Counted from the stretch's first letter, positions 5,255 through 47,928 are shown. The stretch: 64,000 bases of DNA from a virus (IMGVR_UViG_3300020731_000016:1-64000), one strand, 5' to 3'. A program made the numbers and translations. The notes: a model not told the origin generated them from the letters alone.

Positions 5255-6475
5255 TTATTTTTTGGAGATGGTTAATTTGTCTGTTTTATAACGTATTGTT
5301 ATTTGACCATCTTCAATAACATTACCTCTTAAAATTTCTTCACTCAAGAAGTCTTCGCAAAGGTTTTGTATGATCCTTTTGATTGGTCTTGCACCATATT
5401 CTTCTTGGGTATTTAATTCAAAAATCTTATTTGTTACACTTTCATCAAATTTAATTTTATAACCCTTTTCTTTCAAACGATCATTTAATTTATTCAATTC
5501 AATAGAAATAATTGATTTGATTGTTTCATCATTCAATGGATTGAATAATATTAAATCATCAATACGATTTAAGAATTCAGGTTTGAATTGTTGTTTCAAT
5601 GATTTTTGAATCATTGTTTTTCTAACCTCATATCCTTGTTTTTCACTAGTGGCAGTTTTAAACCCTACACCACCACCAAAATCAGATACTTTCTTTGCCC
5701 CAACATTTGATGTCATGATAATGATGGTATTTGTGAAATTAACTTTTCTTCCAAAAGAATCTGTCAAATGACCTTCATCTAATATCTGAAGAAGTAAATT
5801 AAACACATCAGGGTGAGCTTTCTCAATTTCATCAAATAATATAACTGAGAATGGGTTGTTTTTAACTTTTTCTGTTAATTGACCACCTTCATCATATCCA
5901 ACATATCCGGGAGGAGAACCAATTAGTTTTGATACATTGTGTTTTTCCATAAATTCCGTCATATCAATTCTTATCATTTTATTTGGATCACCAAATAAAA
6001 TTTCTGCAATTGATTTTGCCAGATATGTGTTATGTGATAATATACCATTAGTATAATACCTTCTATTAGAACCTTCTATTAATTCAAGGTCATACATAAT
6101 TTCCTCATAACCTAAATTAGATATTTCTAACACTTCAGATTCAATCAATTTACCATCATTATCCGATACCATCACAAATGAACCAAATTTTAAGTCTTTA
6201 ACAAATACTTCGGTTAAACCAATTGGTTCAAATGTAGTTTCATCATAATCAATAAGAAAAATAATATGATTATCTGCACATTTAAGTTCTTTGCCGTCTT
6301 TTAATTTAAGATGATAAACTTCGTATGGTATTGTTTCATGAAGGGATTCTATATCAACAAACCCATCATCAGTTAAAACTTCATACTCACTAATTTTAGT
6401 TGTTTTAGTGATCTTTTTTAATGAATCAAGTTCATTTTTTACAATTAAGTTGTTTAATTTTTCTTTTTTTATCAT
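5255..6475 (-). CDS. ClpC-like AAA+ chaperone, C-terminal half, with split-intein C-part
   Basis: 406 aa. Residues 1-149 are the C-terminal part of a split intein: YEVLTDDGF, a block ending GILSHN, then extein Thr150. Residues 150-406 continue the second AAA+ domain: TYLAKSIAEILFGDP right after Walker A, MIRIDMTEF, the pore loop GYVGYDEGG, Walker B VILFDEIEKAHPDV, sensor IIIMTSN, FLNRID, and the D2-small domain. After trans-splicing with the product of 7766-9103, the protein would be about 671 aa. It should act as an ATP-driven unfoldase or disaggregase. Confidence 0.85.
   Translation of the reverse strand: MIKKEKLNNLIVKNELDSLKKITKTTKISEYEVLTDDGFVDIESLHETIPYEVYHLKLKDGKELKCADNHIIFLIDYDETTFEPIGLTEVFVKDLKFGSFVMVSDNDGKLIESEVLEISNLGYEEIMYDLELIEGSNRRYYTNGILSHNTYLAKSIAEILFGDPNKMIRIDMTEFMEKHNVSKLIGSPPGYVGYDEGGQLTEKVKNNPFSVILFDEIEKAHPDVFNLLLQILDEGHLTDSFGRKVNFTNTIIIMTSNVGAKKVSDFGGGVGFKTATSEKQGYEVRKTMIQKSLKQQFKPEFLNRIDDLILFNPLNDETIKSIISIELNKLNDRLKEKGYKIKFDESVTNKIFELNTQEEYGARPIKRIIQNLCEDFLSEEILRGNVIEDGQITIRYKTDKLTISKK
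6029..6475 (-). mobile_element. Split intein, C-part (ClpC-like protein)
   Basis: 149 residues ending in His-Asn with Thr as the +1 extein residue. The split lies close to the N-terminal end (31-residue N-part, 149-residue C-part), an atypical split site. The part contains the HINT block with CADNHIIFL. Confidence 0.8.
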
Positions 6476-6490
6476 TTGTTTAATTTTTTA

Positions 6491-6498
6491 CAAATATA
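6491..6498 (-). promoter_or_regulatory. TATATTTG box without clear -33
   Basis: Minus-strand TATATTTG inside the end of the homing gene, 15 bases before the ATG of the chaperone C-half. It may give the C-half its own transcript. I see no TTG at the right distance. Confidence 0.35.
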
Positions 6499-6501
6499 CG
6501 T

Positions 6502-7719
6502 TTATTTTTTTAAAAATAATAAACATTTTTTTAATACTTCTTCTTTATTACCCCATCTATATTCGGAATCCCATATAACTAAAACATCAAACCCATTTTG
6601 TTTTGCACAATTTAATTTTAATTCATCTTTATCCCACATCTCTTGTGCTGTAATGGTTTTTATAAACGGATGTGGATAATCATCAGCTTTATATTTATTT
6701 GGATTTCCATGAAACATATCACCATGAAATTCAATTATCCGTTTATTTTTAATATCGGTAAAATCATATAACCAAACACCACCTTCTTTTTTAGTTAATT
6801 TAAACTCACTATTATGTGTTGCGAAATGAACTTTATCCCTATTACTAATATCATATATTTCTAAAATTTTATAGAACAAATCTTGAGATATTTTAGAATA
6901 TCCAATAACTATATTACCATTGGTTAATAACGATTTTAACCATTTATTTTGTCTTTCAGTAAAACGTTTTTTACCTTCTTCTTCACCATACTTTGCAATG
7001 CATTTTTCAAGACTAAAAGTTGACTGATGTTCTGATACATTTTGTTTTGCATCTTCTTTTGAATAACCTTTATTAACCCAATATTCTATATTGGATGGAA
7101 TTAGTCTTTTTTCAAAATCAACTTGTTTCGCAGATTCAGTTTGGTTTTTACTAATAATGTCTTTTGCCTCATTTTCAGAACACCCCTTATTAACCCAGAA
7201 TTCAGAATTTGTTGGTGTTAAACAAATACGTTTTATTTCTTCTTCGGTGTAACCTTTATCAGCTAACATTTTTTTAGATTTACCATGATAAGTTTTAACA
7301 CATTTAGATGATTTTTGTTGCTGTTTAGATATTTCTTTATTAGCTTCTTCTATAGAATAACCCTTATTTATCCAATATTCCTTACATAAACGATTCCTTT
7401 GTTTTAATTCTTCATTACGTTTATCCAATTCAACCAAAGCGTCTTTATCATTCCAACCACGTTCAATCCAATATCCTAATTCTCCCCATTTTTTAGTTTT
7501 AAAACCATAATTTTTAACCAACCAACCACGCATTAACGATAACGAAACAACACCTTCTTGTTCTTGTAATTTAATTATTAATGATTCCATTTCTTTTTTA
7601 ATCGTTTCATTATCGTAGCGTATGTTTTTATCTAATTTTAAAACATGGTCTTTAAACGTTTCTAAATCTGGAAACACTTCAGTCACTTCTTTAATTCCTT
7701 TACTTGTTTTTATCTTCAT
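6502..7719 (-). CDS. Vsr-like homing endonuclease inside the broken chaperone gene
   Basis: 405 aa. The middle contains repeats of about 45 residues with the core [YF]W[IV]NKG[YC]S..EA, at about residues 116, 176 and 212; these probably read DNA. The C-terminus is a Vsr/EDxHD-like nuclease: RIIEFHGDMFHGNP, then TAQEMWDKDELKLNCAKQNG and a final strand VLVIWDSEYRW. This type of gene between two split-intein halves was described for 'fractured genes' in marine metagenomes. It lies 46 bases after the N-half and 26 bases before the C-half. Confidence 0.8.
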   Translation of the reverse strand: MKIKTSKGIKEVTEVFPDLETFKDHVLKLDKNIRYDNETIKKEMESLIIKLQEQEGVVSLSLMRGWLVKNYGFKTKKWGELGYWIERGWNDKDALVELDKRNEELKQRNRLCKEYWINKGYSIEEANKEISKQQQKSSKCVKTYHGKSKKMLADKGYTEEEIKRICLTPTNSEFWVNKGCSENEAKDIISKNQTESAKQVDFEKRLIPSNIEYWVNKGYSKEDAKQNVSEHQSTFSLEKCIAKYGEEEGKKRFTERQNKWLKSLLTNGNIVIGYSKISQDLFYKILEIYDISNRDKVHFATHNSEFKLTKKEGGVWLYDFTDIKNKRIIEFHGDMFHGNPNKYKADDYPHPFIKTITAQEMWDKDELKLNCAKQNGFDVLVIWDSEYRWGNKEEVLKKCLLFLKK

Positions 7720-7733
7720 GACATATATTTTAT

Positions 7734-7741
7734 AATAAATA
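7734..7741 (-). promoter_or_regulatory. TATTTATT motif
   Basis: 14 bases upstream of the Vsr-like homing gene (7719). Confidence 0.3.
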
Positions 7742-7765
7742 TCATGAAGTTTTAAAAAGTTAGGA

Positions 7766-9103
7766 CTAATTGGTGTCGGGTACTATATTTTTTATATCAA
7801 TCGTTTTTATCTCACCAGTTACTTTGTTTCTAACAGTTATTTTTGTATCACCACAAATACACTTACCAACACCAGTAGAACCTAAGAACATAAATGAACC
7901 GATTGGTTTATTTGTATCTTTAATTCCCACTCTATTTCTTCTGATAGATTTTGCAATTATTGAAATTGCTTCTTCTTGACCGATAACTTTCTTATTAAGA
8001 ATTTCTTCCATCTTTAAAAGTTTTTCAGTTTCCTTATTGTCAAGTTTTGCAATCGGAACACCGGTCATTTCTGTTATGATATGATAAACATCATCAACTG
8101 AAATTACTTTTTTATTTAATTTACATTCTTCCTCAAATTTGGCTTTGATTTCAATTATTTTATTTGCCAATTTCTTTCCTTCATCTCTCAATCTTGCTGC
8201 ATCTTCAAAATTCTGACTTCTTACAACCAATTTCTTTTGCTCATTGATTTTTTCAATTTCAGCATTAATTTTATCAACTTCTTCTGGTAGTTTTGTTGAG
8301 ATCTTCTTTTCTGAACCCAATTCATCCATTATATCAATTGATTTATCAGGAAATTGTCTATCTGTAATAAATCTACCAGATAATTTAACAATGGTTTCTA
8401 TAACATCATCATTATATGATACCATATGGAAATTCTCATAAGAAGTTTTTAAGTTCTTTAAGATTTCTATTGTTTCCAATTCTGTTGGTTCATTAAGAAT
8501 AATCTTTTGGAATCTTCTTACCAAAGCAGAATCTTTTTCGATATGTTTTTTATATTCATCGAAAGTCGTTGCTCCGATGCATTGTATTTCACCACGTGCC
8601 AAAGCGGGTTTAAGGATATTTGCTGCATCCATTGCACCACTTGCATTGCCAGCACCTACCATTGTATGTAATTCATCAATGAATACAATAACGTTGGTAA
8701 CACCTTCCAATTCATTTAAGATTGCTTTAATACGTTCTTCAAATTGTCCTCTGTATTTTGTACCAGCAACTAATGAGGTTAAATCCAAGGACATGATTCT
8801 TTTATCTAATAGATTAGAAGGACAATCACCTTTATATATCATTAGTGCAAGTTTTTCAACTAATGCAGATTTACCAACACCCGCATCACCAACAATAACT
8901 GCATTGTTCTTCTTCTTACGAGATAGAATTTGTGCAATACGTTTAACTTCTAAATCTCTACCTATAATAGGGTCAATCTTTCCTTCCTCTGCCAACTTAA
9001 CAAGGTCTCTGGAAAAATTATCCAAAATAGGTGTGTTTGAACCCTTCTTAGTTTTTTTAGGGTTAGTGGGTTGTTGACCCTCTTCGTAATAATCTACTGA
9101 CAT
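7766..9103 (-). CDS. ClpC-like AAA+ chaperone, N-terminal half, with split-intein N-part
   Basis: 445 aa from ATG 9103. It has no Clp N-domain: first-domain Walker A (GDAGVGKS) is already at residues 72-79. Walker B VIVFIDELHTM and VRRFQKI follow. A short UVR-type middle region (EKINEQKK...DAARLRDEGKKL) resembles ClpC more than ClpB. A second AAA+ domain starts and stops within its Walker A, GSTGVGK. Residues 415-445 are a 31-residue intein N-part beginning with Cys, and then the frame stops. Function requires trans-splicing to the 5255-6475 product. Confidence 0.85.
   Translation of the reverse strand: MSVDYYEEGQQPTNPKKTKKGSNTPILDNFSRDLVKLAEEGKIDPIIGRDLEVKRIAQILSRKKKNNAVIVGDAGVGKSALVEKLALMIYKGDCPSNLLDKRIMSLDLTSLVAGTKYRGQFEERIKAILNELEGVTNVIVFIDELHTMVGAGNASGAMDAANILKPALARGEIQCIGATTFDEYKKHIEKDSALVRRFQKIILNEPTELETIEILKNLKTSYENFHMVSYNDDVIETIVKLSGRFITDRQFPDKSIDIMDELGSEKKISTKLPEEVDKINAEIEKINEQKKLVVRSQNFEDAARLRDEGKKLANKIIEIKAKFEEECKLNKKVISVDDVYHIITEMTGVPIAKLDNKETEKLLKMEEILNKKVIGQEEAISIIAKSIRRNRVGIKDTNKPIGSFMFLGSTGVGKCICGDTKITVRNKVTGEIKTIDIKNIVPDTN
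7769..7861 (-). mobile_element. Split intein, N-part (ClpC-like protein)
   Basis: 31 residues: Cys1, ITVRNKVTGEIK, then IDIKNIVPDTN. The insertion lies between Lys and Thr of the Walker A motif GVGK/T. It is very similar to the N-part in the terminase gene (18216-18308). Confidence 0.8.
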
Positions 9104-9256: not shown

Positions 9257-9628
9257 ATGTTAACAAGAATCAGAAGTCCATTTTTTGACACATTAGAGTC
9301 AATTTTAGAACAAACTAACTTCAATGAGAGAAGTTATAATTCCTCAATAACTAATGTAACAGAGAATAATTATCAGGTTTTAGTATCAGTTCCCGGTTTA
9401 TCTAAGGATGATATTAAAATCACGATTAAGGATGGTTTATTAACCGTTTCTTATGATAAACCAAAGGAAAGTAAAAATCCATTTGTTGGATCATTTAAGA
9501 AGACATTCTCATTACCGGAGGATGGGGATGAGGGTAATATTACTGGAAAGGTCGAGAACGGGGTGGTGGAAATTTCAATTCCTAAAGTTCAGAAAAAATC
9601 CACAGAACGTATAATTGTGGTTAAATAA
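9257..9628 (+). CDS. Hsp20/alpha-crystallin small heat shock protein
   Basis: 123 aa. The alpha-crystallin domain spans about residues 32-123: VTENNYQVLVSVPGLSKDD, GLLTVSYDK, FKKTFSLPE and ENGVVEISIPK, ending with a short IIVVK tail in place of the usual I-x-I. It holds unfolding proteins for refolding. Related Hsp20 proteins are common in T4-like phages. It is divergent from the ClpC-like gene, so the pair could form a small phage chaperone unit, and it is closed by a terminator. Confidence 0.93.
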   Translation: MLTRIRSPFFDTLESILEQTNFNERSYNSSITNVTENNYQVLVSVPGLSKDDIKITIKDGLLTVSYDKPKESKNPFVGSFKKTFSLPEDGDEGNITGKVENGVVEISIPKVQKKSTERIIVVK

Positions 9629-15926: not shown

Positions 15927-15957
15927 AAGGTGGTAATTTTTTACCACCTTTTTTTTG
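15927..15957 (+). terminator. Terminator before terminase
   Basis: Stem AAGGTGGTAA/TTACCACCTT with a long T-run. It separates the upstream head operon from terL. Confidence 0.85.
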
Positions 15958-15965
15958 TATTTATC
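15958..15965 (+). promoter_or_regulatory. TATTTATC motif
   Basis: Directly after the terminator and 3 bases before the terL ATG. Confidence 0.35.
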
Positions 15966-15968
15966 TAT

Positions 15969-18311
15969 ATGAATAGTAAAATAGAACAATTAAAGGAGTA
16001 TGCTAGAATAATTAAAGATACCCCTTACGCATTAAGAACATATCTTCAGACATATGATAACACGCAAAAGAAATATGTACCAATGGATTTGTTTCAGGAT
16101 CAAATCCAATTGATAGAAGATTATGAAAATTACAACGAAAATATTACGAGAAAATATCGTCAGGCTGGGGTTACTACTGTAACTGCGGCATGGTTATCTA
16201 AAAAACTACAATTAGCAAAACCTGAAAACCCTGAAAGAGTTCTTCTTATTGCAAATAAACGTGATACTGCCGTGGAAATGGCAAATAAGATAAGAAACTT
16301 TTTAGACCAATGGCCATCATGGATTAATGTTGGTTTTTCACCTGATAAGAATTCTGAAAGTAGATTTAAATTAAATAATGGTTGTGAGGTTAAAGCGGTT
16401 GCAACATCTCCCGATGCGTTACGTGGTTATACACCAACAATACTTGTATTTGATGAGGCTGCGTATATTGAAGCCGGTGAGGACTTTTGGTCAGCATCAA
16501 TGGCATCCCTTTCAACAGGTGGTAAGATTATATTAATATCTTGTGTTACAAAAGATACATATGTTTTTACAAAAAATGGTTTAGAACAAGTGTCCGATTT
16601 TATAGACGAAAATAAAACTATTGGTGATGGTTATATTGTTGATGATTATGAAATATTAGGAAAAGATAAAGTACGAAAATCTAACTTAATGTTAAATAAC
16701 GGTAAACAAAAAACATTAAAAATACATACTGTTAATTCAATTTTAGAAGGTACTGAAACACATAAAGTATGGGGTTTTTCTAATGAATTAAATAAATATG
16801 ATTGGTATAAATTATCCGAATTAAAAATTAACGATTATGTCAATGTAAATTTTGGTATGAACATGTGGGGTAATCAAGATGAAATTAATTTTGAATATGA
16901 TCCATCAAATAAAGAACATAATATTTTTAATCCGGGTAATAAAATAACAAAAGAATTATCATATTTTTTAGGATTATTTATTGCTGAGGGTTCAACATAT
17001 AAAAAATTAGATGAGAATGGTAAACATATTGGGAGTTCGATTACAATTACTTGTGGTGATGATATAAGTGAATATATTAAATCAATAGGTTTAACCTTTT
17101 CATCCCACGATAATTTACACTATACCATTGGATCAAAAAGTTTTTATAGTTTTTTAGAATATATTGGATTTGATTTAAATTTAAAAGCAAATCAAAAAAT
17201 TATTCCAAAAAGATTATTAAAGATGAGTAAAGAAAATATAAAATTTTTAATAAGAGGGATATATGATGGTGACGGTTATGTTGATAAAATTAGAGGTAGG
17301 GTTGGAATTGGCTTATCGTCTGCGGAATTGATAAACCAATTACGTATGTTACTTATTAATTTTGGTATTTTAACTGATTTTAATATTATGAATACAAAAC
17401 CAACCAAAAAAGTAAAAGTATTTTCTGTTAATTATAGAATTGTTTCAGATTCGATTAACTCCAAAATATTCTTTGATGAAATTGGTTTTAATTTTGAACG
17501 TAAATCAAAATATTATTTTTTACACGAAAATAAAGATATTAATTATAATAATCCAAAAGATATTATTCCAAATGGTTCTAAATTAATAAAAGAAATTTTA
17601 GTTAAAAACAATTTAAAAAGAAAAAATTTAGATAAAAAATTTAAAAAAATTTATGATGATAATTTAAGAAAAAAAAATATTTCAAGAAAAACATTTAAAG
17701 ATTTTATTGATTATTTTATTTTAAATAATTATGTGGTTAATGATATTGATAAAATTTATTTTGAAAATTCAAAATGGGTATCAATAAAAAAAATAGAAGA
17801 GAATGAAAACGAAACCTATGATTTTTCTTTATATAATGATGATTCTGATTTTTGGTGTCATTCTATCATTTATAATGGTATTTTAGGTCACCAAACACCA
17901 AATGGTTATGACCCAATATATTATGGTGTTTATGACCAAGCAATTCGTAAAATAAACGATTTCCATATTACCGATTTAAGATGGTTTAAAGATCCTCGTT
18001 ATACAAAAGATTTAAGATGGGTTAAATGTACTGATATTGTTCATTATATGTTAAATCGTGAATTATATAATGATGATGAAATTGTTATGTATGATTATGA
18101 TATTGAAAAATATGTTGAATATATTGAAGATGGATATAAACCGTTTTCAAGTTGGTTTGAATCAATGTCAAAGAAGTTCAAATATGACAAAAGAAAGATT
18201 GCACAGGAGTTGGAGTGTTTATCAAAAAACACAATTATAACCGTTAGAGATAAACAAACAGGTGAAATTAAAAAAATGAAAATTGGTCAACTATATAATG
18301 AATTAAAATAA
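15969..18311 (+). CDS. terL: Terminase large subunit, N-terminal part with one intein and a split-intein N-part
   Basis: 780 aa from ATG 15969. Extein 1-191 has the ATPase: adenine-binding Q (LFQDQIQLI), a Walker A variant RKYRQAGVTT, and Walker B ILVFDEAAY. Intein A (192-642) is followed by extein 643-749, starting at the coupling motif TPNG. Residue 750 starts a 31-residue split-intein N-part, and the frame then stops. Trans-splicing to 18486-19685 would give a 589-aa gp17-like terminase (T4 gp17 is 610 aa). The intact protein packages DNA into proheads. Confidence 0.9.
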   Translation: MNSKIEQLKEYARIIKDTPYALRTYLQTYDNTQKKYVPMDLFQDQIQLIEDYENYNENITRKYRQAGVTTVTAAWLSKKLQLAKPENPERVLLIANKRDTAVEMANKIRNFLDQWPSWINVGFSPDKNSESRFKLNNGCEVKAVATSPDALRGYTPTILVFDEAAYIEAGEDFWSASMASLSTGGKIILISCVTKDTYVFTKNGLEQVSDFIDENKTIGDGYIVDDYEILGKDKVRKSNLMLNNGKQKTLKIHTVNSILEGTETHKVWGFSNELNKYDWYKLSELKINDYVNVNFGMNMWGNQDEINFEYDPSNKEHNIFNPGNKITKELSYFLGLFIAEGSTYKKLDENGKHIGSSITITCGDDISEYIKSIGLTFSSHDNLHYTIGSKSFYSFLEYIGFDLNLKANQKIIPKRLLKMSKENIKFLIRGIYDGDGYVDKIRGRVGIGLSSAELINQLRMLLINFGILTDFNIMNTKPTKKVKVFSVNYRIVSDSINSKIFFDEIGFNFERKSKYYFLHENKDINYNNPKDIIPNGSKLIKEILVKNNLKRKNLDKKFKKIYDDNLRKKNISRKTFKDFIDYFILNNYVVNDIDKIYFENSKWVSIKKIEENENETYDFSLYNDDSDFWCHSIIYNGILGHQTPNGYDPIYYGVYDQAIRKINDFHITDLRWFKDPRYTKDLRWVKCTDIVHYMLNRELYNDDEIVMYDYDIEKYVEYIEDGYKPFSSWFESMSKKFKYDKRKIAQELECLSKNTIITVRDKQTGEIKKMKIGQLYNELK
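16542..17894 (+). mobile_element. Intein A in terminase, LAGLIDADG type
   Basis: 451 residues from Cys to His-Gln, +1 Thr. It is inserted in the ATPase coupling motif (ILIS / TPNG). LAGLIDADG motifs FLGLFIAEGS and LIRGIYDGDGY are visible. The last residue is Gln, not Asn, which is rare but known for working inteins. Confidence 0.88.
18216..18308 (+). mobile_element. Split intein B of terminase, N-part
   Basis: 31 residues beginning Cys, with IITVRDKQTGEIKK. It is inserted in the conserved QELE / CDF site of the terminase. The short N-part matches the atypical split of the known AceL-TerL intein, which also sits in a terminase. Confidence 0.85.
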
Positions 18312-18499
18312 TTGAATTTGATGGGATTTATTGGCATAGAAATTCAAAAGAAAAAGATGAAATAAGAGATGTAACCTATAAAAATTTAGGATATCAGATA
18401 TTAATCATAAGTGAAAATGATTTAATAGATAAAAAAAATAAAATTAGTGATGAATTAATTAGTAAATGTGTAAATTTTATAAAAAATGAAAATAAATAA
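18302..18499 (+). pseudogene. Remnant of a Vsr-like homing endonuclease
   Basis: An open frame with no start codon, between the two terminase halves. It encodes IIEFDGIYWHRNSKEKDEI, then NLGYQILIISENDL and a helical end. This is the C-terminal core of a Vsr-like nuclease, as in the complete gene at 6502-7719. About 300 N-terminal residues are missing. Its last codons overlap the ATG of the C-half, the same layout as in the dUTPase locus. Confidence 0.75.
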
Positions 18500-18809
18500 T
18501 AAATACGAAATATTAACACCAAATGGTTTTGAAGATTTTGATGGTGTACAAAAATTAAAAAAGAAAACGATTGAAATATTTTTTAATAATGATTTAAATC
18601 TTAGAGGATCATTTAATCATCAAATATATGATTATGATGGAAAACCAATTAAATTATCAAACATAAAAATTGGTGATAAAATCAAATCACATAATGGATT
18701 TTTAATAGTAAAAGACGTAAAGAAACATTATAATAAAACAAATGTTTTTGATATTATTAATTCAGGTAAAGACCATCTTTTTTATTCAAATGATATTATT
18801 TCACATAAT
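18486..18809 (+). mobile_element. Split intein B of terminase, C-part
   Basis: 108 residues ending His-Asn, +1 Cys. It has HINT block features (GSFNHQIYDYDG; FYSNDIISHN). No endonuclease domain remains inside. Confidence 0.85.
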
Positions 18810-19685
18810 TGTGATTTCTTAGGTTCAGGTGATGGTGTGATTTCTAGTGATATTCAAGAGAATATTAGAAAAAACATGATTAGAGTACCAAATGAAAAAT
18901 ATATGACAGGTACTTTATGGCAATGGAAAGAACCAATTGAAGGTCATAGATATATAATGGGTGTGGATGTTAGTAGTGGTCAAAGTGATGACTTTTCATC
19001 ATTTAATATTATTGATTTTGATGATAGAGAACAAGTAATGGAATATATCGGTAAAATACCACCAGATGATTTGGCATCAGTAGTATATAAATGGGCAATA
19101 TTATATAATGCATTTATTGTTGTTGATATTACAGGTGGATGGGGTGGTGGAACTTCCAAAAAACTTAAAGATATGAATTATAAAAACTTATATTATGAGG
19201 GTGTAAACACTCAGAATATTTGGGATTATAATGCAAAGGCAATGGAAAAATTACCGGGTATTAATTTCAATAATAAACGTGTTCAAATTGTATCTGCATT
19301 TGAAGAACAATTAAGAAAAGGATTTATTGTAAGGTCATCAAGATTATTAAATGAACTGAATACATTTGTTTATATGAATGGTAGACCTGATCATATGAAA
19401 GGTGCACATGATGATGCAATTATGAGTATGTCAATTGCAATGTATGCTGGTGATATTTGTTTTAACCAATTACAAAGAACTGAACAAGTTAATAAGGCTA
19501 TGATGGAATCATGGACAATGAGTGAAAGAACATATGAACCACAAAGATCATTATATTCTTATGGTGGTTCTTTTGATCAAATTAGTGGTATGTATATGGA
19601 TAATTCACAATATGGTAATGGTTTTAATTCACCAACATTAGACCAATATAAGGAAAACGCATGGTTATTTGGTAAACAAAGATAA
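18486..19685 (+). CDS. terL: Terminase large subunit, C-terminal part with split-intein C-part
   Basis: 399 aa. Residues 1-108 are the intein C-part (YEILTPNGFEDF ... DIISHN). Extein 109-399 starts CDFLGSGDG and contains the RNase H-like nuclease: YIMGVDVSSGQSDDFS with the first catalytic Asp, FIVVDITGGWGGG with the second, and HDDAIMSMSIAMYAGD near the end with the third. It cuts concatemeric DNA during packaging. A separate ATG and a 174-base gap mean it is translated independently. Confidence 0.88.
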   Translation: MKINNKYEILTPNGFEDFDGVQKLKKKTIEIFFNNDLNLRGSFNHQIYDYDGKPIKLSNIKIGDKIKSHNGFLIVKDVKKHYNKTNVFDIINSGKDHLFYSNDIISHNCDFLGSGDGVISSDIQENIRKNMIRVPNEKYMTGTLWQWKEPIEGHRYIMGVDVSSGQSDDFSSFNIIDFDDREQVMEYIGKIPPDDLASVVYKWAILYNAFIVVDITGGWGGGTSKKLKDMNYKNLYYEGVNTQNIWDYNAKAMEKLPGINFNNKRVQIVSAFEEQLRKGFIVRSSRLLNELNTFVYMNGRPDHMKGAHDDAIMSMSIAMYAGDICFNQLQRTEQVNKAMMESWTMSERTYEPQRSLYSYGGSFDQISGMYMDNSQYGNGFNSPTLDQYKENAWLFGKQR

Positions 19686-19738: not shown

Positions 19739-22700
19739 ATGGCAGAACAAAATAACATGACAGTATTTCAGAAATTAACTAGAATGTTTGGTTATCCCGG
19801 TCAAACTAAATCAGAAGATAAACCGGTATCACCTTCGTTTAATTTCTCAAAAGATGAATTATTAAAAACAAATAGTAGGGAAGAATTTGAAACGGCATTA
19901 TTACAATCACAACAAAGTAATTATATTGCCGATAAATGGTCAAAATTAGATCAATCAATTTATAATCAATCAATCTATTATGAACCAAATAGAATATCTG
20001 CATATTATGATTACGAATCTATGGAATTTTGTTTGGCTGGTGATACAAAAATTGCAACTCCAAACGGTTTTATAACAATTAAGGAATTATCGGATATGGG
20101 TAAAGATCATGAATTTATTGTTTATTCATATGACCATAATTTAAAAAAAGTTGTACCTGCATGGGCACGAAATGCTCATCATACAAGAGATGAAATGACA
20201 TATAAAGTTATTTTTGATGATGGGACACATATTATTGGTACATATGATCATAGACTTATGAAAAGAGATGGTTCATTTAGTAGAATTTCTGAATTAAAAC
20301 CTGGAGATTCTATGATGCCATTTTATAGAAAATCTTTTTATAATAATAAAAAATATAATTGGGTTTATGTATGTAATTCAAATGAGGGTCATAATGGGTG
20401 GATTTCTGAACATAATTTAATTGCTGAATGGTTTTATGAAAGAAAAATAGAAAAAACTGAAGAAGTTCATCATTTAGATTTTAATGGTAAAAATAATTTA
20501 CCTGAAAATTTAAAAATTATGGATATTAATGAACATCGCTCATATCATGCAAAATTAAATAATGAAAAATTATGGTCAAATCCAGATTTTAGACAAAAAA
20601 TGTCTGAAGTTGCCAAAAGAAAAGGTAAATTAAGTTGGAATGGAAAAAGAAGTGGTAAAAATAATCCCGCTTATTTTCATATGCCTTTTGATTTGATAAC
20701 AGAAACCGCTAAAAAATGTAAAACATTAAAAGGAACGTCAAAAGCATTAAATATTGCACATACAAAATTACAGAGAGAAATAATGTGGGCTGGATATAAG
20801 GATTGGTCAACATTTTGTGATGCTTATGGTATTGAAAAATCAAAATATTCAACAGTAAGGGTAAAAGGAGATAATTATGTTTTAAATCATAAAGTAGTTT
20901 CGATTGAGCAGTATAAGATTATTCCGGTATATGATTTAACTGTTCCAGGGTATAAAAATTTTGCAACTGATACTATTTTTTCACATAATACACCAGAAAT
21001 ATCTGCAGCGTTAGACATATATGCAGAAGAATCTACAACAATGTCTGAAAAAGGTGAAATTCTTACAATTTATTCCGAATCAAAAAGAGTTAAACATATA
21101 CTTGAGGATTTATTTAATACAAGATTAGATATTAATACAAACCTACAAATGTGGGCAAGGGGATTGTGTAAATATGGAGATGATTTTGTTTACTTAAAAA
21201 TAGACCCTGAAAAAGGAATTGTGGGTTGTCAACAATTACCAAACGTTGAAATAGAAAGAGTTGAGGGGGCTTCATCTAAATCCCCACAACAAATGGATAA
21301 TAGGGTACCAACTAGAGAACTAAGATTTATGTGGAAAAATAAAGATTTAGAGTTTCAATCGTGGGAAATTGGTCATTTTAGATTATTAGGCGATGATAGA
21401 AAATTACCATATGGTACTTGTTTAAAGTATAATACTAGAATTGAAACTGAAAATGGTTATTCTGAAATACAAAATATAAAAATCGGTGATTTGGTTTGGT
21501 CATTCGACACTATTACACAAACGAAAGTTTTATCAAAAGTATTAGATACAGTAAATTCTGGTATTAAAAAAACATATAAAATTTCAACTAAAAATAATTT
21601 TATTGATGTTTCTAAAGAACATAAGGTATTATATTATAACACTAATAGTAAAAATTTTGAATATAAAAACACCTTAGAATTTAAAATTGGTGATTTATTG
21701 GTGATTAATAAGACAAACAAATATAACGTTAATACAATAATAGATAAAACAAAACCAATAAATAACAATAATGGGTATTGGAATAATATAGATTGTGTAC
21801 CAAATGTTGTGACTCCTGAATTTGCAGAACTATTTGGTTATTTAATAGGAGATGGTTGGATAAGTAATAATGCTGTTTATATTGCTCTTTCCGAACACAA
21901 AACAATTAATGAAAAATATGTTAAATATTTGGAAGATTTTAGTGGAAAATCAATTAAATTTCATGGTGGTGAAAATAACACTTCTCAAGGTGTTTGTAAT
22001 TCTAAAATGTTGAAAGAAATTTTAATACAATTAGGATTTTCAGGTAAGTTTAACGAAAAAAGAATACCAAAATGGGTTTATTCATCGTCATATGATGTTC
22101 GTAAATCATTACTTAATGGTATTATTGATTCTGATGGTAGTTTGTTTATTGATAAATGGAATTTTTTACGTTATAATATTGAACTTTCAAATGAAGAATT
22201 AATATATGATATTAAAATTTTGGTACAATCGTTAGGTTATAAAAGTGGTAAAATATCATCAAGATTACGTAATGGTGGTAAAATTGGTGATAGAATGTTC
22301 AAAACTCAAAGTGAATCGTTTTATTTTTATTTTTATGAATCAATATTATCACAAAAAAAGAAATACGATATACAAAATAGATTAAATGATGATTTTATTA
22401 TTGAACCAATCGTTTCAATTGAAGATTCTGGCGAACATGAGACATATGATATTTTTGTTGAAAACAATAACCATAATTTTTATGCAAACGGGATTGTTGT
22501 TCATAATTCAATGTTAGATAAAATTAGAAGAATTTGGAAACAACTTTTATTAGCGGAAGATGCTATGTTAATTTATAGAACATCTAGAGCACCTGAAAGA
22601 CGTGTATTTAAAATATTTGTAGGTAATATGGATGATAAAGATATTGAACCATATGTACAACGTGTTGCAAATAAATTTAAAAGACAACCTATTTCCGATC

Positions 22701-23602
22701 CAACAAATGGTCAAGTTGATATGAGATATAATCAAATGGCGGTTGACCAAGATTATTTCGTTCCTGTTCGTGACCCAGCACAAACAATGCCAATTGAAAC
22801 ATTACCAGGTGCACAAAACTTAGGTGAAATTGCCGATATTGAATATATCCAAAAGAAAATGTTGGCTGCGTTACGTATACCTAAAGCGTTCTTAGGATTT
22901 GAGGAAGTTGTTGGTGATGGTAAAAACTTAGCCTTAATGGATATTCGTTTTGCAAGAACTATCAATAAAATACAAAAATCTTTAATACAAGAATTAAATA
23001 AGATTGCGTTAATCCATTTATATCTATTAGGTTTAGAAGATGAATTAAATGAGTTTAGTTTATCGTTGACAAACCCATCAGCACAATCTGATTTATTGAG
23101 ATTAGAACAATGGAAAGAAAAAATTACATTATATAAAGATGCAACATCCGATCAATCTCAAATGGGTATATTACCAGTATCTCACACATGGGCTAAGAAA
23201 AATATCTTGGGTATGAGTGATAATGAGGTGATTTTAGATTTACAACAACAACGTTTAGAAAGAGCAATTGGATTTGAATTAACAAATACACAATTAATTA
23301 TTAAACGTTCTGGTGTGTTTGATGAGATTGATTCTAAATATGGTATACCGGAAGAAGAAAGAGAAAAAATTGAAGCTCAAGGTGGTGGTGAAGCTCAGGG
23401 AGGAGGTGGAGCACCAATGGGTGGTGGTGGTGCACCTCCGGCAGGTGGAGGTGGTGAAGGACCATTAAGTGAATCAAAAAAACATAAAATATTAGGTATG
23501 TTGGGAGAAAGTGAAAATTTTTCTGATCTTTTTAATATGGAAAAGGCACAACAGAATATTTATGAAATAGAAACAAAAATAAAAGATATATTAAATGATT
23601 AA
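19739..23602 (+). CDS. 20: Portal protein (gp20-like) with two inteins
   Basis: 1287 aa precursor, about 604 aa after splicing (T4 gp20 is 524 aa). Portal extein features: YYDYESMEF / TPEISAALDIYAEEST around intein A; PYGT / SMLDKIRRIWKQL, then DAMLIYRTSRAPERRVFKI after intein B; QMAVDQDYFVP; IEYIQKKMLAALRIPKAFL; and a Gly-rich acidic tail. It forms the dodecameric ring at the packaging vertex that docks terminase. Its gene follows terL and overlaps the next gene by 8 bases, the T4-like gene order. Confidence 0.92.
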   Translation: MAEQNNMTVFQKLTRMFGYPGQTKSEDKPVSPSFNFSKDELLKTNSREEFETALLQSQQSNYIADKWSKLDQSIYNQSIYYEPNRISAYYDYESMEFCLAGDTKIATPNGFITIKELSDMGKDHEFIVYSYDHNLKKVVPAWARNAHHTRDEMTYKVIFDDGTHIIGTYDHRLMKRDGSFSRISELKPGDSMMPFYRKSFYNNKKYNWVYVCNSNEGHNGWISEHNLIAEWFYERKIEKTEEVHHLDFNGKNNLPENLKIMDINEHRSYHAKLNNEKLWSNPDFRQKMSEVAKRKGKLSWNGKRSGKNNPAYFHMPFDLITETAKKCKTLKGTSKALNIAHTKLQREIMWAGYKDWSTFCDAYGIEKSKYSTVRVKGDNYVLNHKVVSIEQYKIIPVYDLTVPGYKNFATDTIFSHNTPEISAALDIYAEESTTMSEKGEILTIYSESKRVKHILEDLFNTRLDINTNLQMWARGLCKYGDDFVYLKIDPEKGIVGCQQLPNVEIERVEGASSKSPQQMDNRVPTRELRFMWKNKDLEFQSWEIGHFRLLGDDRKLPYGTCLKYNTRIETENGYSEIQNIKIGDLVWSFDTITQTKVLSKVLDTVNSGIKKTYKISTKNNFIDVSKEHKVLYYNTNSKNFEYKNTLEFKIGDLLVINKTNKYNVNTIIDKTKPINNNNGYWNNIDCVPNVVTPEFAELFGYLIGDGWISNNAVYIALSEHKTINEKYVKYLEDFSGKSIKFHGGENNTSQGVCNSKMLKEILIQLGFSGKFNEKRIPKWVYSSSYDVRKSLLNGIIDSDGSLFIDKWNFLRYNIELSNEELIYDIKILVQSLGYKSGKISSRLRNGGKIGDRMFKTQSESFYFYFYESILSQKKKYDIQNRLNDDFIIEPIVSIEDSGEHETYDIFVENNNHNFYANGIVVHNSMLDKIRRIWKQLLLAEDAMLIYRTSRAPERRVFKIFVGNMDDKDIEPYVQRVANKFKRQPISDPTNGQVDMRYNQMAVDQDYFVPVRDPAQTMPIETLPGAQNLGEIADIEYIQKKMLAALRIPKAFLGFEEVVGDGKNLALMDIRFARTINKIQKSLIQELNKIALIHLYLLGLEDELNEFSLSLTNPSAQSDLLRLEQWKEKITLYKDATSDQSQMGILPVSHTWAKKNILGMSDNEVILDLQQQRLERAIGFELTNTQLIIKRSGVFDEIDSKYGIPEEEREKIEAQGGGEAQGGGGAPMGGGGAPPAGGGGEGPLSESKKHKILGMLGESENFSDLFNMEKAQQNIYEIETKIKDILND
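20030..20989 (+). mobile_element. Portal intein A with HNH endonuclease
   Basis: 320 residues, Cys to His-Asn, +1 Thr. The insert carries an HNH motif (EEVHHLDFNGKNNLPENL, then NEHRSYH) instead of LAGLIDADG, the only HNH intein in the window. It ends TDTIFSHN. Confidence 0.88.
21419..22507 (+). mobile_element. Portal intein B with LAGLIDADG endonuclease
   Basis: 363 residues, Cys to His-Asn, +1 Ser. LAGLIDADG motifs ELFGYLIGDGWI and LLNGIIDSDGS. Confidence 0.9.
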
Positions 23603-25167: not shown

Positions 25168-27015
25168 ATGGATAAGAATACAACATATAAAGATAATAGA
25201 ATCCTTTTAATCGAATACGATGCAGGATACGTATCTCCTAAAGAAAATACTAAGATTATACAGGAAATGAAGGATTTGGACTATTCAGAAGACCTTATCC
25301 TTTATGCTGTGCTACAAAAATATGATACACCAAATAAGAATGGTAGAATTTATCCCGAAGTATTATTAAAGAGGGAAAACGAAAAATATCAATCTGTAAT
25401 TAAAAAAGGTAGTGCTTTAAATGAATTAAATCACCCTTCATGTCACACGGGTGATGTTGATATTTTAACAACCTCTGGTTGGAAAAATATCCAAAATTTA
25501 AGTGAGTTTGAAGAAATTATCACATTAAATGAAAATGGTGTTCAAGAGAACAAAAAAATTTATTCAACGGTAAAAGAAAAATATAAAGGTAAGATGATTC
25601 GATTATATGGTCGTAACATTAATACTTTAGTAACTCCTAACCATAAATTTCCTGTTATAAACAATAAAAAATTTTCATTTATAACATCAGAAGAAATTTT
25701 AAAATCTTTTAATCAAAATAATAAACTTTCAAATTTTTATATACCTAAAGTAAGTAAAGTAAATGATTTGAAAAATGAATATTTTAAATTGGAAGGGGTT
25801 TTAGAAAATGAATTTGATATAAGATGTGAGGAAGATGTTAAATTTTTATATAAAAAAGATTTATATATACCTATGGATGTTTTTATGTGGTTTATGGGTA
25901 TATATTTATCTGAAGGACATGTTGGTTTAAGTAGCGTTAAAAAAAGAAAATCAATTCTTTCAAATGGTGAAACATGTTACTATGAATCATCCGATAATGG
26001 TTATATTGTTGGTATTTCGCAAAAAAAAGAAGAATCTACAGAATTAATTGAGGGATTATTATCTTTTTTACCGTTTAATGTAAAAAAATATGTTAAAAAA
26101 AATGGTACAACTTCATTTATAATTAATGATAGACGATTGTGGAAATTTTTAAAACCTTTGGGAAAATCACATCAAAAATATATCCCTGAAATCTTAAAAA
26201 ATCAATCACCTGAAAATTTAGAAAACCTTATTAAATGGTTTAAATTAGGAGACGGTAGAACTATTGGAAAATACAACCAATCTGATATATTTTCAACATC
26301 AGAAAAATTAATTAATGATTTGCAAGAAATTCTAATAAAAACAGGTAAGTCTGGAAATATTAGAAAAGAAATAAGAAATAAAGATAGGTTTATTATTGAA
26401 GATAATGGTAAAAAACGTCTAATAAAAGGTGAAAATACCAAAGACATGTGGTTTTTAACATTATCAAAAACAAATGGGATATATTTAGACAATCGTAGTC
26501 TTAAAGTTACTGAAGAAGATTTCGATGACTATGTTTATTCTGTTGACGTTCCAAACCATACGTATTATGTTAGAAGTAATGGTAAGTGTCATTGGACTGG
26601 AAATTCTTCACTTATCGACTTAGATAGAGTTTCACATTCAATATTGGAAACATGGTGGGATGGAAAAATGTTAATGGGAAAAATTAAACTATTCACATCA
26701 CCAGGTTGGAAAAAAATGGGTATTGTTAGTACCAAAGGTGACCAAGCTGCAATGTTATTAATGAACGGAGCAACACTTGGTATTTCTTCACGCGGTGTTG
26801 GTTCATTAAAAAATGTTAAAGGACAAAATATAGTTCAAGATGATTTCGAATTAGTATGTTTTGACTTAGTATCATCACCATCTACACCGGGTGCATACAT
26901 TTTTGCAGATCCATCTGAAAGAGACCAATATCAAGAATCTGAAGGAGAAAAACCTGCGGTAGACGATCGCATGAAAAAATTAATGGGTAATTTAAATAAT
27001 TTTTTATCAAAATAA
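25168..27015 (+). CDS. 21: Prohead maturation protease (gp21-like) with intein
   Basis: 615 aa precursor, 227 aa after splicing (T4 gp21 is 212 aa). The extein has the S77 protease features: LQKYDTPNKNGRIYP, the catalytic His in ELNHPS just before the intein, SLIDLDRVSH after it, and the catalytic Ser in LGISSRGVGS. T4 gp21 cuts head proteins after [LI]-x-E; the capsid and many tagged proteins here carry such sites. It lies directly upstream of scaffold and capsid genes. Confidence 0.9.
   Translation: MDKNTTYKDNRILLIEYDAGYVSPKENTKIIQEMKDLDYSEDLILYAVLQKYDTPNKNGRIYPEVLLKRENEKYQSVIKKGSALNELNHPSCHTGDVDILTTSGWKNIQNLSEFEEIITLNENGVQENKKIYSTVKEKYKGKMIRLYGRNINTLVTPNHKFPVINNKKFSFITSEEILKSFNQNNKLSNFYIPKVSKVNDLKNEYFKLEGVLENEFDIRCEEDVKFLYKKDLYIPMDVFMWFMGIYLSEGHVGLSSVKKRKSILSNGETCYYESSDNGYIVGISQKKEESTELIEGLLSFLPFNVKKYVKKNGTTSFIINDRRLWKFLKPLGKSHQKYIPEILKNQSPENLENLIKWFKLGDGRTIGKYNQSDIFSTSEKLINDLQEILIKTGKSGNIRKEIRNKDRFIIEDNGKKRLIKGENTKDMWFLTLSKTNGIYLDNRSLKVTEEDFDDYVYSVDVPNHTYYVRSNGKCHWTGNSSLIDLDRVSHSILETWWDGKMLMGKIKLFTSPGWKKMGIVSTKGDQAAMLLMNGATLGISSRGVGSLKNVKGQNIVQDDFELVCFDLVSSPSTPGAYIFADPSERDQYQESEGEKPAVDDRMKKLMGNLNNFLSK
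25441..26604 (+). mobile_element. Protease intein, LAGLIDADG type
   Basis: 388 residues, Cys to Gly-Asn (CHWTGN), +1 Ser. Motifs WFMGIYLSEGH and LIKWFKLGDGR. The penultimate residue is Gly instead of His. It is inserted two residues after the catalytic His, so unspliced protease must be inactive. Confidence 0.88.
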
Positions 27016-44917: not shown

Positions 44918-46693
44918 TTACTTAGCTAAATGTGCTTTGTATTTTTTATATATCTTCTGTATTAATGGATCTCTTTTTTGGAATGATTCATCTAATTCTT
45001 TAATACCGATTTCAGGTTCATTACCAAGTATTTCAATTAAATCAAAAATACCAGTATTTCTAATATCAGTTTGGAATGGATCTGCCATTAATATTAATTT
45101 TGATGAAGAACTTTTTCTTGTTATAAAAGATATTTGTTCATGTAAAACCGCACCTTGTATTTCATCTGCAATAATACATGCATTTTCAAAACTAACACCT
45201 CTACAAAATTGTATTGGTTCAAATATTACAGTTTCTTCTCTGAATAATTTTTCTGTTTCTAACTTACCGATAATTTTTTCCATATTATCAATAAATGAAC
45301 GTAAATAAGGTTCTATTTTTTCTTCTGAAGTACCGGGTAAAAATCCCATACTTTTACCAATTTCAACGATTGGTTTTGTTAATACAATTTTCTCAATATT
45401 CTTTTTCCTTAATTCAGTTAAAGCATAATAAAGAGCTATTGTTGTGTTATGTGTAACAATAAAATTATCGGTTAAATATAAATGTGATGGTGAATCAACA
45501 TAAATACATTGACATTCTTTTTCACCAACATACTCAATTTTTTTAATTATTCTTTTAAATTCATTACGTTTATTATTTAGTAAACGTTCTCTTTTTCTTG
45601 TTAATGTGAATAATTTATGATAATCTTCAAAATAAAGATATACATTATAATTTATTGATGTTTTAATAATATCACCATTATTATTTTTATATTTACTTTC
45701 TCTATGTTTTATTTTACCAACACCACCCAATGAAAATATTAAAAATAAAATATCATTAGCTAATTGTAAACTACTTGTACTTATGGATATTCTTTGATTT
45801 TTTTCTACAGTACCGTCAGTATCCAATAACCCATTTAATAATTTTAAACGATTATCAATATTTGTGAAAATGTATTCTTTTGGAATAAATTTTTCTTTAC
45901 TACCAACATTAATATTTAATCGTCTTATTTCATTTAAAATTTCATTTTTTTGTTTAACCCCATTTATTCGATAATCACAACTTTTCAAATCTTTTTTCTT
46001 TAATGAACAATTATGTTCTTTTATAATCTCATCAACAGAATTTAATATTTCTTTATCAATTGTAGATAAAATTACGGAATTTTGTGTTAATCCCCCATCA
46101 CCTAATAATACACCTATTAAATAAGGATCTATATTATGGTTATCTTTAAAATACTCCGATTTTGAAAAATCAATAGGTTTGTGTTTTGGTAAATAATAAT
46201 TATTACTTAATTTTGAAATAATTTCTTTTGTTGGTAATGTTTCATATTTCAAATAATTGGTATTGATATATTCTTTTCCATTTTTTTTATGGAATTGATT
46301 ATACAAATTTTTCTTTTTTATAACACTCCATAAATGTTCTTCACAACATTCTGTGGTAGAACCATCATTTAATGTTATTTTAACTATCTTTTTAACCCCT
46401 TGTGGATAAATACCTAAAATAGTTGTCTCATCACCATTTTCTGTAATTATTTTATCTCCAACAATTAAATCCCCCATTAATTTATAACCATTAGATGTTA
46501 CAACATTTGAATCTAATGGTTGTGCTTTTCCACAACCCGGATCGGCAAGTAATAATGTTATTTGATTATTTCTTATAAATTCGACTACTTCTTTTTGATT
46601 GTCGTCTAATGTGATTTGAAACTTTGGGGGTGTTTTAGGAACTCTCTTCTCTTTGTAAACATTGTCTGTATGCGGTTTAGACGCCATATTCAT
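44918..46693 (-). CDS. phoH: PhoH-like ATPase with intein
   Basis: 591 aa precursor, 231 aa after splicing. Extein: ITLLLADPGCGK / TTIALYYALTEL (Walker A split by the intein), IVLTKPIVEIGKSMGFLPG, VIFEPIQFCRGVSFENACII, Walker B IADEIQG, SSKLILMADPFQTD. This is the PhoH/RNA-helicase-like family common in marine phages, of unsettled role. A second possible start is at the third residue (ATG 46687). TATTTATA motif 10 bases upstream. Confidence 0.88.
   Translation of the reverse strand: MNMASKPHTDNVYKEKRVPKTPPKFQITLDDNQKEVVEFIRNNQITLLLADPGCGKAQPLDSNVVTSNGYKLMGDLIVGDKIITENGDETTILGIYPQGVKKIVKITLNDGSTTECCEEHLWSVIKKKNLYNQFHKKNGKEYINTNYLKYETLPTKEIISKLSNNYYLPKHKPIDFSKSEYFKDNHNIDPYLIGVLLGDGGLTQNSVILSTIDKEILNSVDEIIKEHNCSLKKKDLKSCDYRINGVKQKNEILNEIRRLNINVGSKEKFIPKEYIFTNIDNRLKLLNGLLDTDGTVEKNQRISISTSSLQLANDILFLIFSLGGVGKIKHRESKYKNNNGDIIKTSINYNVYLYFEDYHKLFTLTRKRERLLNNKRNEFKRIIKKIEYVGEKECQCIYVDSPSHLYLTDNFIVTHNTTIALYYALTELRKKNIEKIVLTKPIVEIGKSMGFLPGTSEEKIEPYLRSFIDNMEKIIGKLETEKLFREETVIFEPIQFCRGVSFENACIIADEIQGAVLHEQISFITRKSSSSKLILMADPFQTDIRNTGIFDLIEILGNEPEIGIKELDESFQKRDPLIQKIYKKYKAHLAK
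45446..46525 (-). mobile_element. PhoH intein, Ala-1 type, LAGLIDADG
   Basis: 360 residues, from Ala (AQPLDSNVV) to His-Asn, +1 Thr. It is inserted between Lys and Thr of Walker A. Motifs YLIGVLLGDGG and LLNGLLDTDGT. Ala at position 1 means the usual first N-S shift is impossible, so an alternative splicing route is needed. Confidence 0.88.
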
Positions 46694-46746: not shown

Positions 46747-47052
46747 TTATTTACCAGAACTACCAAATCCACCTGTACCTCTCTCAGTATCAGAGAGTGT
46801 TTCGGATTCAATAAATTTAATTTGAGGATAAGGTAAAATAATTATTTGTGCTCCTCTTTCACCTAATTCATATTTGTTAAAAAATGGTGCGTTATCAGTA
46901 ACTATTTTGAATGTGGCTTTAATTTCACCTCTATAACCACAATTATGTAAACATAAATTATTTCCAAAGAAATTATGATTTTTTTCTACTGTTAAATGAT
47001 AAATTGGTTTACTATTAGTTTTTTCAATTTTTTTTATTTTGGTATATTTCAT
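46747..47052 (-). CDS. dut: dUTPase, C-terminal part with split-intein C-part
   Basis: 101 aa. Residues 1-37 are an intein C-part (PIYHLTVEKNHNFFGNN, ending LCLHN), then extein Cys38. CGYRGEI continues dUTPase motif 3, FNKYELGERGAQIIILPYP is motif 4, and RGTGGFGSSGK is the Gly-rich motif 5 that closes over the nucleotide. Spliced to the product of 47929-48633 it makes a 203-aa dUTPase. Its ATG lies inside the end of the homing gene. Confidence 0.88.
   Translation of the reverse strand: MKYTKIKKIEKTNSKPIYHLTVEKNHNFFGNNLCLHNCGYRGEIKATFKIVTDNAPFFNKYELGERGAQIIILPYPQIKFIESETLSDTERGTGGFGSSGK
46942..47052 (-). mobile_element. Split intein of dUTPase, C-part
   Basis: 37 residues ending His-Asn, +1 Cys. 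This is the conventional split position (as in DnaE inteins), unlike the Clp and terminase split inteins. Confidence 0.85.
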
Positions 47053-47872
47053 TTACTTTATTTTTAATCTTATTTAATGTTATTTTTTTTGTTTTATAAT
47101 CATTTTCCCATATTATAATAACTTCATACCCATTATCGGTTAATAATTTAACCCGTTGATTATCATTTTCCCATATTTCTTTAGCGGTTTTTCTAATTTG
47201 TTTATGGTAATAATCGGGATTAAAAAATAATGGATTACAGTGCCAATAATCACCATAACATTCAATTAATATTTTATTATTTATTAAAATATCAGGAAAT
47301 GTTTTTCTCATTTTTAAATCTATAAATCCATTTGAATCAACTGTTAAATTTTTAATTTTTAATTTTAAAAATTCAAATATTTCTTTTTCAAATTTAGATG
47401 TTCTTTTACCAACAAATTTAGACTTACACTCATTTGAACAATAACCTTCATCCTCCCAATTTGAACTAATATATACTTTATCACAAGAATTACATTTTCT
47501 TTTTATTCTACCTGATAAGTGTTTACATTCATTTGAACAAAATTTAGAAACTTTTCGATAATTCCAAGTTTCATATTCTTTACCACAATGATCACATGAA
47601 AATTTATTTTTTTTTAATTTTATAGTATTATTATTTTTCTGTTGATTCTTACTTGCACATGATATTGAACAAAATCTTCTTTTAGTGTAATTTTGAACCT
47701 CAACTTCTTTATCACATTCTTCACATTTAATAATTTTTCTTTTTCTTAATGGATTTAATATTGTTGACATTGAATTGATTCTACATTCATTTGAACAATA
47801 TTTTGAATGATCTCTATTTGTTAAAAATTCTTTATTACATTGTAAGCATATTTTTTCTTGTTTTTCACACAT
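47024..47872 (-). CDS. Vsr-like homing endonuclease with zinc-finger repeats, inside the broken dUTPase gene
   Basis: 282 aa. At least five CxxC-type zinc units in the first 165 residues (CLQCNKEF...CSNEC; CEECDKEV...CSISC; CDHCGKEY...CSNEC; CNSCDKVY...CSNEC). The C-terminal Vsr/EDxHD nuclease has MRKTFPDILINNKILIECYG, DYWHCNPLFFN, AKEIWENDNQRVKLLTDNGY and VIIIWENDY. Same nuclease class as at 6502-7719 but with zinc fingers in place of the repeat module. It overlaps the dUTPase C-half by 29 bases. Confidence 0.85.
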   Translation of the reverse strand: MCEKQEKICLQCNKEFLTNRDHSKYCSNECRINSMSTILNPLRKRKIIKCEECDKEVEVQNYTKRRFCSISCASKNQQKNNNTIKLKKNKFSCDHCGKEYETWNYRKVSKFCSNECKHLSGRIKRKCNSCDKVYISSNWEDEGYCSNECKSKFVGKRTSKFEKEIFEFLKLKIKNLTVDSNGFIDLKMRKTFPDILINNKILIECYGDYWHCNPLFFNPDYYHKQIRKTAKEIWENDNQRVKLLTDNGYEVIIIWENDYKTKKITLNKIKNKVNEIYQNKKN

Positions 47873-47890
47873 ATAACCACATTCTATTAC

Positions 47891-47898
47891 AATAAATA
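47891..47898 (-). promoter_or_regulatory. TATTTATT motif
   Basis: 18 bases before the homing gene ATG (47872). Confidence 0.3.
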
Positions 47899-47928
47899 TC
47901 CAATAGAATGTAAAAGAATACGATATAT

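Follow-up and report, generated by a model that had tools for sequence, protein, structure and literature searches.

Fractured genes, split inteins and free-standing endonucleases were reportedly described from metagenomes by Dassa et al. in 2009 (NAR 37:2560), and it is with these that we compare a ClpC-like gene at positions 5255-9103, minus strand, of IMGVR_UViG_3300020731_000016:1-64000, a stretch of 64,000 nucleotides (hereafter the window) from a lake-type phage genome. As in the fractured genes, a conserved enzyme gene is broken by a split intein, a Vsr-like endonuclease gene lies between the parts and the source is phage-type and metagenomic, whereas the host here is a ClpC unfoldase, the split of the intein is atypically N-terminal and the intein belongs to a family tied to the Walker A motif of many ATPases. 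The kind of element itself is already known, both as fractured genes and as atypical split inteins, and by the features tested the locus fits the `fractured gene' layout proposed for it in a first-pass annotation, in that each gene half carries one part of the split intein and a free-standing endonuclease gene separates the two. Natural atypical N-inteins comprise 15-37 residues (PMC13014065). The short N-intein (31 residues) and long C-intein of the window resemble those of AceL-TerL, VidaL, the engineered Cat and PolB16 OarG (PMC10189870, PMC13014065), whereas the host gene and the insertion site are different and a homing gene is present between the halves. Contiguous inteins are found in the P-loops of DnaB, RecA, RadA and other proteins (PMC5874633), which is the same phosphate-binding loop of NTPases, but the window intein is split and is accompanied by a free-standing endonuclease gene.

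The locus is very probably a mobile fractured-gene element, in which the ClpC-like unfoldase of a T4-like phage, interrupted by a split intein, would be trans-spliced to 671 residues and which would be spread by homing of an EDxHD/Vsr-like endonuclease. In the mechanism that we propose, an AAA+ gene lacking the ClpC N-domain would have been cut between the Lys and the Thr of the Walker A motif of its second AAA+ module (D2), the gene halves would be translated separately and the intein halves would then associate. Attack by Cys1, trans-esterification at Thr+1 and Asn cyclization would then join the exteins and restore a ClpC with an intact P-loop, and the free-standing endonuclease would cut intein-less (probably also endonuclease-less) alleles, so that the cassette would spread by homing. 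The features of the locus are as follows.

9103 (ATG) to 7766 (stop), minus strand: N-half, 445 residues (414 extein and 31 N-intein)
7862-9103, minus strand: N-extein, 414 residues, with the ClpC-like first AAA+ module (D1), the middle domain with its UVR motif and D2 as far as Walker A GSTGVGK
7769-7861, minus strand: N-intein, 31 residues, beginning with Cys1 (block A CICGDT) and with Lys13 within an RNK motif
7714-7749, minus strand: inverted repeat with the endonuclease start codon in its 3' arm, a predicted RNA hairpin
6502-7719, minus strand: Vsr/EDxHD-like putative homing endonuclease, 405 residues, frame open with no internal stop
6475-5255, minus strand: C-half, 406 residues (149 C-intein and 257 extein)
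6029-6475, minus strand: C-intein, 149 residues, an 18-residue leader and a 131-residue Hint part with block B ADNH, block F MYDLEL and block G SHN
5258-6028, minus strand: C-extein, 257 residues, D2 from the Walker A Thr (+1) on, with Walker B, sensor 1, VGF, EFLNRID and GARP

The three minus-strand open reading frames (ORFs) and their boundaries (445, 405 and 406 residues, with intein parts of 31 and 149 residues) agree to the residue with those given in the first-pass annotation. The N-half ends in GVGK followed by the 31 residues CICGDTKITVRNKVTGEIKTIDIKNIVPDTN, while the C-intein terminates in YYTNGILSHN and the extein restarts with TYLAKSIAE; the predicted spliced product has 671 residues. 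When viral contigs were scanned with the C-half, 590 relatives were confirmed and the best 80 of them were retained; about 70 of the 80 are intein-free with an uninterrupted GSTGVGKT, so that the presence of the intein among them is sporadic. Because homologues read through GSTGVGKT and the joined exteins align at full length (671 of 671 residues against relative L012, with 78.5% identity and one gap), the element is an exact insertion between the Lys and the Thr of the D2 P-loop (GVGK/T), and related phages keep empty sites. An unsplit version, a contiguous mini-intein, occupies the same ClpC D2 site in L115, in which the N-intein and C-intein sequences are fused in an ORF of 1019 residues. 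The identical split layout recurs in L002 (a 162-kb contig, sample 3300000439) and L082 (sample 3300013094), and a single continuous frame on re-sequencing is therefore unlikely. In a viral contig of metagenomic origin, assembly or sequencing might have united unrelated pieces, but the chance of such an artefact is negligible, as it is already contradicted by the same arrangement in the contigs of these two samples and in many diverged relatives.

The ClpC-like nature of the host, also proposed earlier, holds. Both exteins belong to the ClpA/B/C family according to Pfam and NCBIfam, the C-half matches AAA_2 (4e-60) and ClpB_D2-small in Pfam, the best PDB match of the host protein is ClpC (6em9, 286 bits) and the middle domain contains a UVR motif. 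The joined exteins hold both Walker A motifs, both Walker B motifs, the pore loop GYVG, VGF, EFLNRID and GARP, where the VGF tripeptide is presumably the ClpP loop tripeptide of ClpP-binding Clp ATPases; two AAA+ modules, a UVR-type middle domain and a ClpP loop together place the protein among the ClpC-type unfoldases. The ClpC N-domain is absent from the window protein and present in related split genes. No report of ClpC as the host of a split intein was found in the literature searched, and ClpC as the host of a fractured gene appears to be new. An Hsp20 gene (window 9257-9628, plus strand) adjoins the ClpC N-half in divergent orientation, and the two proteins could possibly form a phage proteostasis pair.

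All of the residues expected for splicing are present, namely Cys1, the block B His, the block F Asp, the block G His-Asn pair and Thr+1. In the C-intein core, H52, D111, H130 and N131 are invariant across 21 relatives, and the usual block B Thr is replaced by Ala throughout the C-intein family. The start of the C-half was recognized by Pfam and NCBIfam as Intein_splicing and Hint, and the AlphaFold2 model of the C-intein shows a Hint fold with a predicted local distance difference test score (pLDDT) of 94, for which Foldseek returned 46 PDB matches with E < 0.001, nearly all of them inteins (Cat, VidaL and gp41-1 among them) and a few other Hint proteins. The nearest PDB sequence is that of Cat, a consensus intein that is split at an atypical position. 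The N-intein is far below the usual length of about 100 residues, and in the relatives it mostly has 27-39 residues. These results, together with the unsplit version at the same site in L115, bear out the atypical split intein of the first-pass annotation: judged by its sequence, the element is a class 1 intein, naturally split at an atypical N-terminal position, and the two halves would be expected to undergo trans-splicing.

The dependence of the D2 ATPase on trans-splicing, which had been called strict, was overstated; the ATPase may depend on it, with non-covalent assembly as the rival. In the latter case, insertion of the endonuclease gene would have split the host gene and the halves would form a working D2 non-covalently with the intein pieces as passive passengers, like nrdA/mobE of phage Aeh1, the NrdA halves of which reportedly assemble in this way. 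Phages do have split enzymes with an embedded homing gene, as is the case for mobE within the Aeh1 nrdA gene (PMC2988022). For the ClpC-like protein, however, such an assembly is improbable: the C-intein has an omega of about 0.1 with invariant catalytic residues, the charges of the N-intein and the C-intein co-vary, and the split lies inside the P-loop, where a free end and a 149-residue domain at the Thr would disrupt ATP binding.

The putative endonuclease has four W-x-x-[KR]-G motifs, at residues 83, 115, 174 and 213, which mark helical repeats in its N-terminal part, a region which probably reads DNA; a putative nuclease domain follows at the C-terminal end. The protein is akin to phage genes annotated `VSR endonuclease' (tblastn 9e-15); it is unrecognized by Pfam and NCBIfam, matches only a family of unknown function in PHROG and gave only chance matches with phmmer against the PDB. 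E305, D319, E330, H337 and D365 are invariant in 13 endonuclease sequences, and we assign an EDxHD motif to the invariant E/D/H/D residues. It resembles the I-Bth0305I/EDxHD endonucleases (PMC3943268; 3r3p) and Vsr (1vsr) in these conserved residues and in its extended modular N-terminal region, and by Foldseek, with weak statistics, its C-terminal domain may share their fold, whereas the W-x-x-[KR]-G repeats match no known module. As its omega of 0.17-0.37 indicates purifying selection, the description of the gene as live is well supported; Vsr and I-Bth0305I are the sensible fold matches for its Vsr-like character, with E-values that are not significant.

The AUG of the endonuclease gene lies inside the 3' arm of a predicted hairpin (-17.1 kcal/mol, z -4.8, 0/200 shuffles). 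The hairpin is also predicted in L005 (z -6.1) and in the diverged L089 (z -5.3), L140 (z -5.0) and L090 (z -7.8), it is weak or absent in L098 and L145, and in L089 and L140 the stem stops just before the AUG. Among nine close sequences there are no two-sided compensatory changes and the pairs vary on one side only, so that covariation lends the hairpin no support, which instead comes from the shuffle z-scores and from its presence in diverged loci. The T4-type homing endonucleases I-TevI, SegB and MobE are regulated by RNA hairpins (PMC2988022), and in the window a stable hairpin likewise stands at the translation start of an endonuclease inside the host operon; the window hairpin differs in covering the AUG and in that no late promoter is shown inside it. 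The loop contains a late-promoter-like motif, TTTATTATAAAAT, which shows no enrichment across the window, and no promoter is therefore claimed. The hairpin over the start codon probably dampens translation of the endonuclease.

Comparison of the window with L084 showed nucleotide identities of 61-62% for the exteins, 90% for the N-intein, 94% for the endonuclease and 86% for the C-intein, with synonymous divergences (dS) of 1.62 for the N-extein, 0.27 for the N-intein, 0.13 for the endonuclease, 0.66 for the C-intein and 1.78 for the C-extein. In L005 and L127 the N-intein has a dS of 0 within exteins with a dS of 0.9-1.25. Because the intein parts and the endonuclease are far more alike than the exteins that surround them, the cassette moves between ClpC genes, and from these values the N-intein and the endonuclease appear to be exchanged more often than the C-intein. 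Such transfer between diverged ClpC genes is in line with endonuclease-driven homing, for which the endonuclease would cleave the intein-less allele.

All parts of the locus are under purifying selection, with an omega of about 0.07-0.19 for the C-intein and 0.12-0.13 for the exteins against the split orthologue L085. These extein values, the complete set of intact ClpC motifs, three ORFs with neither a stop nor a frameshift and the same form in three records all speak against a decaying pseudogene, in which the phage ClpC would be non-functional and the halves would be remnants. Although the gene is in pieces and the endonucleases of some relatives (L080 and L123) are decayed, as might be expected of a pseudogene, we regard decay of the locus as very improbable. 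Other split alleles have no endonuclease, namely L007 (a gap of 34 bp), L124 and L131 (overlapping halves); loss or decay of the endonuclease in L007, L124, L131 and L080 therefore indicates that splitness outlasts the endonuclease. In L174 (4873-7974) the endonuclease is in frame with the C-intein and a TerL C-extein in a single ORF of 1033 residues. The C-halves of L016, L009 and L097 have additional N-terminal domains of 60-150 residues before the C-intein, and additional small ORFs lie between the endonuclease and the C-half in L003 and L004.

Several results weigh against the mobile, trans-spliced element. The sensible top Foldseek matches of the endonuclease model, 1vsr (Escherichia coli Vsr, E 0.054) and 3r3p (I-Bth0305I, E 0.16), with probabilities of 0.93-0.97, lie above E = 0.001 and the confidence of the model is moderate (pLDDT 70), while the endonuclease profile found no match among PDB sequences. 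The Intein_splicing match in Pfam (5.6e-6) is below the curated cut-off. The low extein omega may partly predate the insertion, since the dS of the endonuclease is lower than that of the exteins.

The intein has many relatives. Searching with a C-intein profile turned up 467 related stretches in viral contigs and a further six in bacterial genome contigs, and the best 80 of the former and the six latter were read; the counts given here were made after dropping near-duplicates and mis-matches (L150, L153 and second matches in L165 and L187). In 67 of those read, an N-half ending in GK is followed by a Cys-initial N-intein, mostly of 27-39 residues, and about 50 of these loci have a Vsr-like gene between the halves. 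The regular expression for the N-half demands GK, so that a count of `all at GK' is biased by construction; each C-intein with a score of 100 bits or more has Thr or Ser directly after it, which does not depend on the N-half pattern. The hosts, which were either confirmed by Pfam matches of the joined or C-terminal exteins or clear from the sequence itself, are ClpC D2, ClpC D1, TerL, a DnaB-like helicase, a gp44-like clamp loader, a BCS1-like AAA protein, an SbcC-like AAA_23 protein and a ClpX-like protein. In the C-intein tree, which has few columns and is weakly resolved, host labels cluster yet need 21 changes compared with a minimum of seven, and two starred forks unite different hosts (L110 D1 with L107 D2, and the L146 clamp loader with L007 ClpC). 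The ClpC case of the first-pass annotation is thus real but not isolated, being one host within a Walker A family. No description of split inteins concentrated on the Walker A motif of unrelated ATPases was found in the available literature, and this generality of the site appears to be new.

In some ClpC genes both P-loops are fractured. The gene of L090 comprises five ORFs, encoding the N-terminal part of D1 with an N-intein, an endonuclease, a C-intein followed by the rest of D1, the first part of D2 and a second N-intein, another endonuclease, and a C-intein with the rest of D2; the ClpC genes of L006 and L123 are likewise split at both sites. In L116, L127 and L162 the D2 split is accompanied by an intein at a neighbouring D1 site, and in L008 by an Ala1-type intein that lies contiguous within the D1 P-loop. 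As the middle piece has a C-intein in front and an N-intein behind, interchangeable pairs would let it cyclize or mis-join. Residue 13 of the N-intein, the last of RNK or RND, and the D/K residue of the GF-x-D/K motif in the C-intein have opposite charges, with 46 plus/minus, ten minus/plus and no equal-charge combinations among 67 (Fisher p 3e-11), and among 3390 column pairs only one, which contains the same N-intein residue, has a higher corrected mutual information. D13 with K is found in ten of 11 ClpC D1 inteins, the exception being L152 (K13 with D), and in L006, L090 and L123 the two intein pairs within one gene are of opposite charge types. The charge state changes at least five times on the C-intein tree and ten times when the specificity segment is left out of the tree; this speaks against a single founder event, with weak tree resolution as a caveat. 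The D1 C-intein of L110 looks like a chimera when compared with L107, its first 20 or so residues being D1-type and the remainder D2-type, with the D1 charge kept. These patterns suggest that the charge swap may set the orthogonality of the intein pairs. Neither double P-loop fractures nor the charge swap was found in the available literature, and a charge swap between intein pairs appears to be new. A further reading, which we hold with moderate confidence, is that of a mobile EDxHD-linked phage family of atypically split inteins specialized on Walker A GK/T or GK/S and moved among unrelated P-loop ATPases; in doubly fractured ClpC, the K13-D versus D13-K swap would keep the pairs orthogonal, so that three polypeptides would be joined in order and the middle piece would not be cyclized.

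About ten inteins are present within the 64-kb window. The TerL gene (15930-18311 and 18486-19685, plus strand) contains two inteins, first a contiguous one of the LAGLIDADG type and then an atypically split one with an N-intein beginning CLSKNT and a C-half resuming at CDFLG, an insertion which we take to be the site type of AceL-TerL. Only a remnant of a Vsr-like endonuclease (ORF 18302-18499) lies between these halves. With RDK and GFED, the TerL split intein is of the same charge type as the ClpC intein, and cross-splicing in one cell is therefore conceivable. At 46747-48633 (minus strand) a canonically split intein breaks a dUTPase gene, and the two parts flank another gene for a Vsr-like endonuclease (47024-47872). 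Other inteins (19739-23602, 25168-27015, 44918-46693, 49663-52026 and 57116-61075) interrupt the genes for portal gp20 (two), prohead protease, PhoH, a glycosyltransferase-like protein and DNA polymerase; that of PhoH is of Ala1 type at GCGK/T and possibly of class 3. In the near-identical 162-kb contig (L099, 816-6810), canonically split inteins break a ribonucleotide reductase gene at two places, the intervening endonuclease-like genes differ from each other, and a TnpB-like ORF follows this locus.

In conclusion, the occurrence of one intein family at the same GK/T or GK/S position in about eight kinds of ATPase site makes the P-loop preference of inteins testable, and the constraints of homing and splicing therefore become separable. 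The predicted natural charge-swap code offers an account of how mis-splicing is avoided when one gene holds two homologous split inteins and, if true, would provide new orthogonal short-N-intein pairs for protein engineering. Whether P-loop splicing of an unfoldase may act as a switch during infection becomes a testable question.

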